Shown here in pieces: positions 30,851 to 37,725 of a stretch of 64,000 bases of DNA. Within the stretch, counting starts at the first letter, position 1; each line of letters starts with the position of its first letter. A program made the position numbers and the translations under genes. Source of the DNA: Methylophilaceae bacterium. Lineage in GTDB: Bacteria > Pseudomonadota > Gammaproteobacteria > Burkholderiales > Methylophilaceae. The stretch lies in assembly GCA_028351715.1 (NCBI GenBank), contig JAOMKM010000003.1, positions 26,151-90,150 of the forward strand, written 5' to 3'. The notes beneath the pieces were generated by a model. It searched no databases. It saw only the letters and a program-made list of their open reading frames with translations, and was not told the origin of the DNA.

Positions 30851-31735
30851 CTATCTTCTTATAAATTTTAATAAAGAAGGTAAGGTCATATGTGCAATAG
30901 TTAAGGATCCTAAAATAGGAAATATTAAAGAATAAACATCTGCATTCCAATATCTACCATATGTAAATCCGATAAATACTAATACTGGAAGAGTAAAAAT
31001 AATAAGCCATTTAAGGTCGACGTTCCAATTAAAATTAGAATCAATTAAAGAACGAACTCCATGTAACCCACAGAAATAAATTGCAAACCAAACAAATGGA
31101 TGAGTAAAGTAAGAGAGAACAACTAGAGAGGTGAGTTCAAGCAGTAACAAAATATCCTTATTTTTAAACCAAACCACCATCAACATTGAATTACCAATAT
31201 TACTTATAAAGTTCCAATACAGCCTAATAATGCTGAGAATTAAAATGCAATAAATAATAACAATTAAGAAATCAGCTATATTGAATCCGATTAAATTATA
31301 AAAAATTGAATCAACAATATCTCTTTTAAATAAAATTGGTAAGAAAGTCATACTGAAACCCCATGACAGTCTAATATTTATGTCAGATAGTTTAAGGAAT
31401 TTTAAATCAGAATTTCCAAAATGAAAAATTGACATGATAAGTAAAACCAATAATCCAATTGCAGGATAGCTTACCCATAAAGACCAACCTAATATTACTA
31501 AAGATAAATATAGACCAAATAGAATAATTCTTTGGAAATTTTTATTTATTCCTCCCCATATTAATTTTCCATCTAATGCACCATGACTAACCCCAAGTGT
31601 ACTTACAAAAAAAAGAGCTACCCAAATTAAATAATTAAGATAACTATTGATAAAATTAGAGAAAATATTAAAGATCAATATTAATAATGAAAATATAATA
31701 AATATCTGTTGGTGAATAATTACTTTATTTAACAT
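30851..31735 (-). CDS. blh: Beta-carotene 15,15'-dioxygenase, Brp/Blh family
   Basis: Multi-TM, LGVSHGALDGKLIW, SIFHFGNSDL, CGLHGVRSL; adjacent to crt genes and rhodopsins. Confidence 0.9.
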   Translation of the reverse strand: MLNKVIIHQQIFIIFSLLILIFNIFSNFINSYLNYLIWVALFFVSTLGVSHGALDGKLIWGGINKNFQRIILFGLYLSLVILGWSLWVSYPAIGLLVLLIMSIFHFGNSDLKFLKLSDINIRLSWGFSMTFLPILFKRDIVDSIFYNLIGFNIADFLIVIIYCILILSIIRLYWNFISNIGNSMLMVVWFKNKDILLLLELTSLVVLSYFTHPFVWFAIYFCGLHGVRSLIDSNFNWNVDLKWLIIFTLPVLVFIGFTYGRYWNADVYSLIFPILGSLTIAHMTLPSLLKFIRR

Positions 31736-32862: not shown

Positions 32863-33720
32863 TTAATGTGCTCCTGGTAAATTCATAATAGAGGTATGTA
32901 ATTTCTTATTATGGACTTTTAGCTCAGCATGATTATTTGTTATTGAAAAAATATTGGCTAAGGTTATTCTTAATTTTTCATATTTAGTAACAAACACCCT
33001 ACCCTTTAAATATGAAACATCCTTATTGATAATCTTTTTACCAATAGCTTGGTAGAGCTTAGATGCTATTTTTATTGCTAGTGGTGTTCTACCTGGCAAA
33101 AAAGGGATTGCCAAATCTGCACTAGCATAATACTTGTCAGCTAATTTTAATAGCGTGTTTTGACATGCTTTAATTTTATTATATGTAGCTTTATTAGGTC
33201 TATTTACCTCATCAGCTACCAACCTTCCAACTAGACTTTTTGGCAAATATACTCTCCCCATTGCTGAATCTTCTTTTATATCTCTGGAAATATTTGTTAA
33301 TTGCATTGCTATACCTAAATCGATTGCATATCGTCTTATATTACTATTCTTTACTTCTAATGCATCACACACCATCAATCCAACAATACCCGCAACTCTA
33401 TAGCAGTAGATAGTTAGTTCATTAATTGACGTTGGTTGTTTATGAGATAAATCACTTTTTTGTCCTAATATAAACTGTCTGGTTATTTCTTTTGAAGGAT
33501 TAAATTTTTTTTCCAGCCCTATAAAGCCTTCTATTTTTTTATAAAAATTTTTTTTAAGATCTATATTTAATTCTTTTTTATTGTTGTCTACTATGTCATC
33601 AATTTTTCTGCAGAAGGCATATATTGAAAATAATCTTAATTTGATCTTTTTTTCAAGAAAAAAAGACGCCCAGTAAAAAGTCTTGCCATATTTTTGGATA
33701 ATATGAGATTGCTTTTTCAT
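32863..33720 (-). CDS. crtB: Phytoene synthase
   Basis: FYWASFFLEKKIKLRLFSIYAFCRKIDDIVDN; GIAMQLTNISRDIKEDSAMGRVYLP. Confidence 0.95.
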   Translation of the reverse strand: MKKQSHIIQKYGKTFYWASFFLEKKIKLRLFSIYAFCRKIDDIVDNNKKELNIDLKKNFYKKIEGFIGLEKKFNPSKEITRQFILGQKSDLSHKQPTSINELTIYCYRVAGIVGLMVCDALEVKNSNIRRYAIDLGIAMQLTNISRDIKEDSAMGRVYLPKSLVGRLVADEVNRPNKATYNKIKACQNTLLKLADKYYASADLAIPFLPGRTPLAIKIASKLYQAIGKKIINKDVSYLKGRVFVTKYEKLRITLANIFSITNNHAELKVHNKKLHTSIMNLPGAH

Positions 33721-35183
33721 GGGTGAATTATATTATCAACTACTTTTGCAGAATTTAATACCCCAGGTATCCCAGCTCCTGGATGAGTCCCGGCACCAAC
33801 ATAATACAAATTTTTATATTTATCGTCTTGGTTGTGTGTCCTAAACCATGCAGATTGAGTCAAAATTGGTGCTATAGAGAAACCACTTCCATAGGGTGTT
33901 CTATAATTATTTTTAAAATCTATTGGAGTCATGCTAAATTTACAAACAGCATTTGTCAAAATTCCTGGCATTATAGTTTTGTCCAATGAGCCTAATATCT
34001 TTTCAGAAAAGCTATCCTTAATTTCATTCCAATTATAATTTCCCTTTAAATTTGGAACTGGGACTAGCGCATAGTATGAATCATGACCTTCTGGAGCAAA
34101 TGAAGAGTCAGTAGCTGTCGGTCTATGAAGATATATAGAGAAATCATCTGCCAAGTGATGTCTGTCAAAAATATCTTCTAGTAGCTCTTTATATCTGGGC
34201 CCCATCCAAATTGTATGGTGCGCAACATTTTTATATTGTTTTTTTGATCCAAAAAATAATACAAATAGACCCATTGAATGTTTAGCATATTTTTTAAGTA
34301 TTTGGTTATGCCATGATATTTTAGTATTTCTAAGAAATTCACTATTTACCTGAATTGGATCAGCATTACTTACAATAATATCGGCTTTTACTTCTTTTCC
34401 ATTTAAAAACTTAATGCTTTTTACTGAATTTATATTGGTAATAAATTCATCAACGTCATGCTCATAATGAATATTTACGCCATGTCTTTCCATGAGATTT
34501 TTTAACTCTTTAACTAGGTGATTAGTTCCTCCCATTGCAAATGATATCCCCCACTTTTGCTCTAATGCATGAATCAAAGCATATATTGAAGATGTCGTAA
34601 AAGGATTGCCTCCAACTAAAAGTGGTTGAATTGAAAATGCTTGCCTTAAATTGGGGTGCTCTAAGTATTTCGAAACAAAACTGTAAACTGATTTGTATCC
34701 TCCTAACCTTATAATATCTGGGCCATACCGTACCATCTTTAGAATCTTATTAAATGGTTCACTAGCAAGCCTCTCGTAACCTAACTCAAATATTTCCTCA
34801 GCTCTTTTAAGCATCTTCAAATAACCATCAACATCTTTTGGGGATATTTGATCAATCTGTTCAAGCATTTTTCTTCTGTCAGGTCCGTAATCAAACCCTG
34901 TTCCATCATTAAAATAAAATCTATACCAAGGATCTAATGGTTTGAATGTTACATAATTATCTATATTTTCATTTAGAAGAGAAAACAATTCTTTGAATAA
35001 GTAAGGTGCTGTTATAACTGTTGGTCCTGCATCGTGAAGGTAGCCATCTTTACTAAATTTTTGAGCGCGTCCACCAAGCTCATCTAATCTTTCATATAAG
35101 GAGACCTCATAACCTCTAGATTTAAACCTAATTGCTGACGCTATTCCACCTAAACCACCACCAATAATTGCTACAGTCTTCAC
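33717..35183 (-). CDS. crtI: Phytoene desaturase
   Basis: VAIIGGGLGGIASAIRFKSRGYEVSLYERLDELGGRAQ; NLYYVGAGTHPGAGIPGVLNSAKV. Confidence 0.96.
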   Translation of the reverse strand: MKTVAIIGGGLGGIASAIRFKSRGYEVSLYERLDELGGRAQKFSKDGYLHDAGPTVITAPYLFKELFSLLNENIDNYVTFKPLDPWYRFYFNDGTGFDYGPDRRKMLEQIDQISPKDVDGYLKMLKRAEEIFELGYERLASEPFNKILKMVRYGPDIIRLGGYKSVYSFVSKYLEHPNLRQAFSIQPLLVGGNPFTTSSIYALIHALEQKWGISFAMGGTNHLVKELKNLMERHGVNIHYEHDVDEFITNINSVKSIKFLNGKEVKADIIVSNADPIQVNSEFLRNTKISWHNQILKKYAKHSMGLFVLFFGSKKQYKNVAHHTIWMGPRYKELLEDIFDRHHLADDFSIYLHRPTATDSSFAPEGHDSYYALVPVPNLKGNYNWNEIKDSFSEKILGSLDKTIMPGILTNAVCKFSMTPIDFKNNYRTPYGSGFSIAPILTQSAWFRTHNQDDKYKNLYYVGAGTHPGAGIPGVLNSAKVVDNIIHP

Positions 35184-36217: not shown

Positions 36218-36955
36218 TTACGCCCCTGCATCTGATTTTCGTTGAGCAATCATATAAATCATCACGCCAAACAAACCAATTGAGACTACATCAGCAATTG
36301 TATATCCAACCTGTATGTTTATATAAGATGCATCCGGAGTAATCATTGGTACTAAATATATTATTGGATAAAAAGTCCATGAAATAATAAGTAACCACCT
36401 TGCATTACTTACCAAACCTTGAACATTTTTAGGTTGTTTAGTGATTGAATTTTCGAGTCCCACAACCAAACTATATAGAATGTATAAAAATGGAACCATT
36501 GCTAATAACCAATACATCCAGCGATCACCCAATTGGCTTACATCAACTAGCCCTTCACCAGGGTAACCTAAAATAACCATTAGTATGGCTGCAATAGTAA
36601 GTTTTGTACCTACAGAAAATGTTTCCTCCTTACTTAGTCGCATTACAAGAACTAACTCAAGTAACAACAAAGGAACAGTTAGTAGCCAACCAACATATCG
36701 ATATGCAATGTTAAATTCTAACCCTGTTGCTAGAACTTCTCCATACATTAATGTAAAGGCATCATTAAAACTATCGAACATTCTTAAATAATGATAGAAG
36801 GCTATTAAGCATACCAAGCCTGACAAAGTAAGGGCTGTTTTATATGCTGGGGCGACTTGAGAGCGCTGAGCAAAAAAGAAAACAGTACTCGCACCAAATG
36901 CTGCAATAGCAAAAGACAGCGAGTTATACACTAAGTTGAAATTAACGGCCTCCAT
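36218..36955 (-). CDS. Type-1 opsin-like protein lacking the Schiff-base lysine and the proton-acceptor Asp (lysine-less opsin)
   Basis: Helix C RYVGWLLTVPLLLLE aligns to PR RYVDWLLTVPLxxxE (Gly89 in place of Asp); helix G YTIADVVSIGLFG aligns to YNLADFVNKIAFG (Ile226 codon att at 36280-36278 in place of Lys). Confidence 0.93.
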   Translation of the reverse strand: MEAVNFNLVYNSLSFAIAAFGASTVFFFAQRSQVAPAYKTALTLSGLVCLIAFYHYLRMFDSFNDAFTLMYGEVLATGLEFNIAYRYVGWLLTVPLLLLELVLVMRLSKEETFSVGTKLTIAAILMVILGYPGEGLVDVSQLGDRWMYWLLAMVPFLYILYSLVVGLENSITKQPKNVQGLVSNARWLLIISWTFYPIIYLVPMITPDASYINIQVGYTIADVVSIGLFGVMIYMIAQRKSDAGA

Positions 36956-36980
36956 CTTATCTCCTGGTTTTTACATTAAA

Positions 36981-37010
36981 AAAAAACGCGCCATTTCTGA
37001 CGCGTTTTTT
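36981..37010 (-). terminator. Bidirectional-looking Rho-independent terminator between the two opsin genes
   Basis: aaaaaacgcg-ccatttctga-cgcgtttttt perfect stem with A/T tails. Confidence 0.85.
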
Positions 37011-37038: not shown

Positions 37039-37725
37039 TTATCTAGTAGCTTTTGAACCTGATGTTGCTGCTGCCCATATAACTACACCAAATGCGATCT
37101 TATTAACAAAGTCAGCTAAGTTATAGACTAAGTTTAAAGTACCTGCATCTGCACTTCCAGTGTAGCCAAGGTAATATCCTATTGGGTATATAGCCCAACC
37201 AACAGTAACGATAAGTCTTAAAGCATTAAATGCTTTTTTACTTGCTGCTGTACCCTTACTTGCACTAATCTTACTAGCTTCACCTGCGAATACTTCATAG
37301 ATGATGTATAACCAAGCAATCATACCTATAGTGAAACCAGACCAAATACCTACAGTACCAACTTCGCCTAGGTAACCAGCTACTAACATAACTATTGATG
37401 CAATTAATAAACGCCAAAATACTGACATTGCTACAACTGCAATAGCTGCTAGTATTAAGTAAAACTCAACAATTTGTAGTGGCACTGTTAATAGCCAATC
37501 TACGTATCTAAATACTGTTGGTGAAGCACCTGTATCTATCCATACTCCTCTCATGTAGAAATAATGAATCGCTGCTATACCTGTAACCATTGCTGCAACT
37601 GTAAGTGATGTTTTCCATTTACCTTCAGCTCTATCTCTTTCTACCCAGAAAAAAAACGTTGCCGCTACCATTGCCGCAGATAAAAGCCAAAAGCTTACCC
37701 CGACAAAATCATTTGGATCTAACAT
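37039..37725 (-). CDS. Proteorhodopsin, predicted proton pump, blue-absorbing type
   Basis: RYVDWLLTVPLQIVEFYLIL: Asp76, Thr80, Gln84 (tuning site), Glu87; helix G LADFVNKIAFG with Lys209. Confidence 0.96.
   Translation of the reverse strand: MLDPNDFVGVSFWLLSAAMVAATFFFWVERDRAEGKWKTSLTVAAMVTGIAAIHYFYMRGVWIDTGASPTVFRYVDWLLTVPLQIVEFYLILAAIAVVAMSVFWRLLIASIVMLVAGYLGEVGTVGIWSGFTIGMIAWLYIIYEVFAGEASKISASKGTAASKKAFNALRLIVTVGWAIYPIGYYLGYTGSADAGTLNLVYNLADFVNKIAFGVVIWAAATSGSKATR

Follow-up and report, generated by a model that had tools for sequence, protein, structure and literature searches.

A lysine-less xanthorhodopsin-type opsin in tandem with a blue-type proteorhodopsin in marine Methylophilaceae: a candidate non-covalent retinal holder

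What can an opsin do once the lysine that carries retinal is gone, and why does it stand next to a proteorhodopsin (PR) that has kept this residue? The question is raised by a locus in a 64,000-nucleotide stretch of Methylophilaceae DNA, which we call the window (contig JAOMKM010000003.1 of assembly GCA_028351715.1). The opsin gene (36218–36955, minus strand) encodes 245 amino acids with an ATG start and no internal stop, and a ribosome-binding site, AGGAG (36961–36965, minus strand), lies 5 nt 5′ of the ATG. The product matches the PF01036 profile with 109 bits against a cut-off of 24.6, which identifies it as a type-1 microbial rhodopsin. Codon 226, at the position of the retinal lysine, is ATT (Ile; 36278–36280, minus strand), and codon 89, at the position of the proton-acceptor aspartate, is GGT (Gly; 36689–36691, minus strand). 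The neighbouring PR gene (37039–37725, minus strand) has Asp and Lys at these two sites, respectively, and also keeps the Glu. The original prediction thus held for the two substitutions, for the normal PR at their side and for the intact frame with a good ribosome-binding site. A light-driven proton pump is recognized by a Schiff-base lysine and a carboxylate acceptor in helix C; with Ile226 and Gly89 in these places, neither the usual Schiff base nor canonical pumping is possible, as had been proposed. Only these two type-1 rhodopsins were found in the window's assembly, which is 68% complete.

The AlphaFold2 model of the lysine-less opsin has seven helices with a mean pLDDT of 80, and its first 14 residues are weak. 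Its closest solved relatives, by sequence and by model fold, are Kin4B8, Gloeobacter rhodopsin (GR), psXR and xanthorhodopsin (XR), and the TM-scores against structures of this type are 0.82–0.89. The model also contains a β-turn between helices B and C, with strands at residues 67–70 and 73–76. Both sequence and predicted fold thus place the protein in the xanthorhodopsin/Gloeobacter rhodopsin subfamily. In structural alignments, it shares the fold and 40–48% identity with xanthorhodopsin, Gloeobacter rhodopsin, Kin4B8 and actinorhodopsin (PDB 3DDL, 6NWD, 7YTB and 9HFK), all of which, unlike the window's protein, bind retinal on a lysine. The position of XR Gly156, which forms the fenestration for the carotenoid antenna, is occupied by Trp149 here and by Trp in all sequences compared. 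Because this side chain fills the window left by Gly156, a xanthorhodopsin-style carotenoid antenna is disfavoured.

Lysine-less type-1 opsins were already known, as the original prediction had stated. In PMC10308929 and PMC7714340, the Rh-noK proteins of marine betaproteobacteria (Yamauchi et al. 2019, doi 10.1111/php.13114) are described as xanthorhodopsin-related, without the retinal lysine, and in tandem with PR and retinal-synthesis genes. The window's opsin has Ile226 (Ile or Leu in 13/13 members of its clade) and stands in the same kind of tandem in an OM43-type genus of Methylophilaceae; compared by description, it is a further member of the Rh-noK kind. According to a figure cited in PMC7714340, lysine-less opsins in general are common, making up about 600 of 5,558 microbial rhodopsin genes. 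The haloarchaeal and fungal opsin-related proteins (Becker 2016, PMC4915679) are also type-1 opsins without the lysine. However, they have lost the retinal pocket and many stand beside transducer genes, whereas the pocket is intact here and no transducer or kinase gene was seen among the neighbour genes checked. FArhodopsins (PMC10308929) likewise occur in aquatic bacteria with streamlined genomes as a second opsin next to one of a bona fide PR lineage, and their freshwater forms lack the lysine. They belong to a different branch, within the PR family, and have a link to flotillin, for which no gene was seen among the neighbours of the lysine-less opsin.

The genus of the window's genome corresponds to the marine OM43 clade (clade name per PMC6794327), and our genus set comprised 31 Methylophilaceae genomes, with KB13, HTCC2181 and LSUCC strains among the named records. 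PR together with a second opsin is present in 13 of these, a single rhodopsin in another 13 and none in five. The sole rhodopsin of the single-rhodopsin genomes, which lack PR, is a homologue of the window's lysine-less opsin that keeps the lysine; Asp89 is present in the 12 full-length genes, and the thirteenth is truncated where its contig stops. The second opsin of the 13 PR genomes has Ile (12) or Leu (1) at position 226 and Gly (11) or Ser (2) at position 89. PR and the lysine-less opsin stand in tandem in 13/13, neither occurs without the other, and both co-occur with the crt genes. Because 13 distinct homologues from 13 separate assemblies share Ile/Leu226 and Gly/Ser89, we rejected a sequencing error or a private mutation as the origin of these residues. 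The lysine-bearing proteins of OM43 (KB13, HTCC2181 and LSUCC strains) and Ca. Methylopumilus (PMC6794327) are direct homologues of the lysine-less opsin, 55–76% identical, in the same place before crtE-I-B-Y-blh. Unlike it, they keep Lys, Asp89, Trp148 and Asp/Asn83. Marine OM43 has been said to carry only the xantho-like rhodopsin (PMC6794327); in contrast, half of the rhodopsin-bearing OM43 species among the genomes examined have PR and Rh-noK instead.

In a tree calculated with the trait columns left out, the lysine-less proteins form one clade with a support of 100/99, and several independent losses of the lysine were rejected on this ground. In the alanyl-tRNA synthetase tree, the lysine-bearing genomes are spread over several basal branches; a single nested group (93/90) contains the lysine-less genomes together with three rhodopsin-free ones. 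Taken together, the two trees map the lysine loss and the presence of the OM43 PR to one branch. The association is therefore a single event and not a repeated correlation. We also rejected the idea that the presence of PR forces lysine loss, because the freshwater Methylopumilus and two Cellvibrionales-labelled contigs (L019 and L020) have PR beside a paralogue that keeps both Lys and Asp.

Several loci deserve separate mention. In L019 and L020, which bear the label Porticoccus/Cellvibrionales, the cassette is the same; its blue-type PR is 78–80% identical to the window's, and its lysine-bearing paralogue is nested within the OM43 proteins, which points to gene transfer or a binning error. 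The five rhodopsin-free OM43 assemblies also lack crtI; several are incomplete, one is 92% complete, and the whole phototrophy locus may have been lost. In a genome of another Methylophilaceae genus, two PR-type genes stand in tandem, the second with an in-frame TGA. One freshwater lysine-bearing paralogue is split over two frames, by an assembly error or as a broken gene. In one further locus, numerous frame shifts disrupt crtI, crtB, crtY and blh while both opsins are open, probably reflecting a low-accuracy assembly. No relative of the lysine-less opsin was found in a scan of viral contigs.

The tandem opsins also differ in their spectral type. Gln at GPR position 105 is characteristic of blue-absorbing PR. 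It is present in every PR of the lysine-less genomes, including that of the window. All xanthorhodopsin-type proteins compared, with or without the lysine, have Leu at this position, as do the PRs of freshwater Methylophilaceae. Leu at position 105 is the green type (PMC11561045). From these residues, we infer that a blue pump probably replaced a green one in the lysine-less branch; that a change in water colour drove the replacement is a guess.

Downstream of the lysine-less opsin, on the same strand, lie crtE (polyprenyl diphosphate synthase, PF00348; 35183–36163), crtI (phytoene desaturase family, TIGR02734 over cut-off; 33717–35183), crtB (phytoene synthase family, PF00494; 32863–33720), crtY (lycopene cyclase, PF05834; 31725–32861) and blh, the β-carotene 15,15′-dioxygenase that makes retinal (TIGR03753, 135.5 bits, over cut-off; 30851–31735), all on the minus strand. 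These five genes constitute a full retinal route from prenyl diphosphates. Other neighbours at the locus are a MoxR-type AAA ATPase and a DUF58 gene. An intrinsic terminator (36981–37010, minus strand; −16.1 kcal/mol, T9) separates the PR gene from that of the lysine-less opsin, and a strong one is found at this site in 12/12 lysine-less loci examined (−14 to −17 kcal/mol, 8–9 T). The hairpin 3′ of the lysine-less opsin is weak or absent in 11/12 loci. In the lysine-bearing OM43 loci, where the homologue stands without PR, a hairpin of the same sequence type separates the opsin from crtE in 9/9. In either state, the terminator thus stands behind the functional pump. With a terminator after PR and mostly none before crtE, the lysine-less gene is grouped with the retinal-synthesis unit. 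It is presumably made in smaller amounts than PR, judging from this arrangement. In freshwater loci, the lysine-bearing paralogue occupies the same operon position.

Comparison with the lysine-bearing OM43 proteins revealed 27 positions with fixed differences, all in helices C–G and loops. Helices A and B have none at 46 positions, compared with 14/111 in helices C–G (p = 0.011). Three carboxylates are lost in all lysine-less proteins, namely Asp83 (replaced by Val/Ile), Asp89 and Asp162 (replaced by Asn/Ser/Tyr). Glu100 and Asp222 had been predicted to be kept; both are present in the window's protein, and Asp222 is invariant in the clade, whereas Glu100 is replaced by Gln in 3/13. Because Lys(+) and Asp(−) were lost together and Arg86(+), also invariant, and Asp222(−) were kept, the core appears to remain charge-balanced. 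Besides 89 and 226, we took 19 other positions to line the retinal by homology to bacteriorhodopsin. All 19 are invariant in the 13 lysine-less sequences, whereas 57/135 of the other membrane positions vary (permutation p = 0.0001). When only positions invariant in all lysine-bearing relatives were considered, 16/17 pocket positions were kept compared with 42/55 others, which is not significant (p = 0.097). The pocket residues are also core packing residues, and thus the simple test is partly confounded. The pocket is certainly kept, perhaps for a ligand and perhaps for packing. Separately, Leu160, Tyr161, Trp187, Leu189, Leu201, Ser210 and Tyr211 are invariant only in the lysine-less clade; they cluster in the F–G loop and close to where helices E and F end, and may form a new contact face.

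Codon models estimated ω at 0.076 in the lysine-less clade; the lysine-bearing OM43 proteins had 0.033, their lysine-bearing freshwater counterparts 0.064 and the PRs of lysine-less genomes 0.049. A three-class branch model, run with our own script, placed lysine-bearing branches at 0.035, the stem at 0.24 and the interior of the lysine-less clade at 0.077; these values are approximate because synonymous sites are partly saturated. The stem estimate ranged from 0.24 to 0.29. The stem evolved faster than the clade (p = 0.028, or 0.018 without codons 89 and 226), and ω = 1 was not rejected for it (p = 0.12–0.28). Inside the clade, ω = 1 was rejected (2ΔlnL = 1165). A phase of change that gives way to renewed constraint is what marks a gene whose function has changed, and not one in decay. 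With ω of 0.077 and the frame open in all 13 assemblies, a pseudogene was rejected, and the original view that the gene is not decaying is borne out; the outcome that would have counted against it, ω near 1 with disrupted frames, did not occur.

Of the roles proposed originally, binding or transfer of retinal fits these data best. It is quite possible, although at less than even odds, that retinal or a precursor is bound non-covalently by the lysine-less opsin, which would buffer it or deliver it to PR. A more specific form, in which the replaced green pump was recruited as a dedicated non-covalent retinal holder or chaperone for the blue pump that superseded it, is somewhat doubtful. In the broader reading that we favour, a former green-type xanthorhodopsin proton pump of OM43 was probably superseded by the blue-type PR, and pumping chemistry was lost on a single branch with the replacements at 226, 89, 83 and 162. 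Comparison with the lysine-bearing proteins shows that the retinal-pocket residues and the ancestral faces of helices A and B were retained. Retinal or an apocarotenoid precursor would now be held non-covalently in the old pocket, and freshly synthesized PR would receive its retinal from the Crt/Blh enzymes through this low-abundance holder. We count in favour the purifying selection after the stem episode, the 19/19 invariant pocket positions, the restriction of position 226 to Ile/Leu, the joint loss of Lys and Asp with Arg86 and Asp222 kept, the transcriptional grouping with crt/blh, the co-occurrence of PR, opsin and crt genes, and the absence of crtI from rhodopsin-free assemblies. According to PMC10308929, restoration of the lysine turned a betaproteobacterial Rh-noK into a retinal-binding proton pump (Yamauchi 2019), which indicates that the pocket is still usable. 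In proteoopsin that lacks retinal, the pocket is occupied by a placeholder lipid (decanoate; PMC11322631), making non-covalent ligands plausible. On the other hand, PR takes up retinal unaided in E. coli, and a carrier is thus not obviously needed. We also count against this role the lack of significance in the stricter pocket control, the coincidence of lysine loss and PR on one branch only, the lysine-bearing paralogues beside PR in Methylopumilus and in L019 and L020, and the identical operon position of the lysine-bearing paralogue in freshwater loci.

The other role proposed originally, a hetero-oligomer partner that enters PR pentamers and modulates pumping, stability or colour, is unlikely in our view. 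Helices A and B carry much of the pentamer interface. The absence of fixed differences in these helices therefore gives no hint that the protein has adapted to a different partner, even though the strict tandem with PR in all 13 genomes and an invariant His55, at the position of the PR interprotomer His, would suit such a partner. The position of the PR interface residue Trp34 is Ser14 in the lysine-less opsin, the long B–C turn is retained in the model whereas PRs lack it, and the strong terminator after PR makes equal expression unlikely. PMC10308929 attributes this speculation to Yamauchi 2019, and PR and xanthorhodopsin-type pumps are both pentameric (PMC11322631); our literature search found nothing relevant on heteromeric rhodopsins. 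Unchanged helices A and B would also suit a light-independent function kept after PR took over pumping, such as phospholipid scrambling by a homo-pentamer, which we regard as distinctly unlikely. Pentamers of actinorhodopsin, a member of the same subfamily, scramble phospholipids without retinal via an inter-protomer groove (PMC12805836). By constant-offset mapping, six of the seven groove positions (Asn11, Ser14, Phe15, Phe26, Tyr87 and Tyr131) are invariant in the lysine-less clade, and the role, argued by analogy, would require no Lys, no Asp and little protein. However, these six do not discriminate, being just as invariant in pumps that bear the lysine, position 117 varies, and scrambling places little selection on specific residues (PMC12805836). 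It also predicts neither the joint loss of opsin and crt genes in five OM43 assemblies nor the grouping with retinal synthesis.

The clade-specific residues around the F–G loop and the ends of helices E and F could instead provide the docking face of a retinal-free sensor or scaffold that uses a new partner to respond to a different stimulus, a role suggested for the haloarchaeal opsin-related proteins. We consider this improbable, because no transducer, kinase or flotillin gene adjoins the opsin and because those proteins, unlike the lysine-less clade, have lost the pocket (PMC4915679). That the gene is a decaying, functionless remnant of the replaced pump is hardly credible. Lys, the acceptor and other proton-path carboxylates are gone and ω is roughly double the value for the lysine-bearing OM43 homologue, but ω remains far below 1 with every frame open, and the gene has persisted throughout a deep clade whose genomes are streamlined. 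The balance thus returns to non-covalent holding of retinal, for which the frozen pocket, the grouping with crt/blh and the published rescue of pumping speak together.

As far as the cited papers show, four elements add to the literature: the comparison of the two states within OM43, the contrast of blue and green types, the placement of the terminator, and the estimates of selection. Because related OM43 genomes represent the states before and after the loss, the role of an opsin without covalent retinal becomes testable with matched pairs. A retinal holder, if that is what the protein is, would amount to a cofactor chaperone derived from an opsin; if it is a scramblase, two proposed opsin functions would be separated within one cell.
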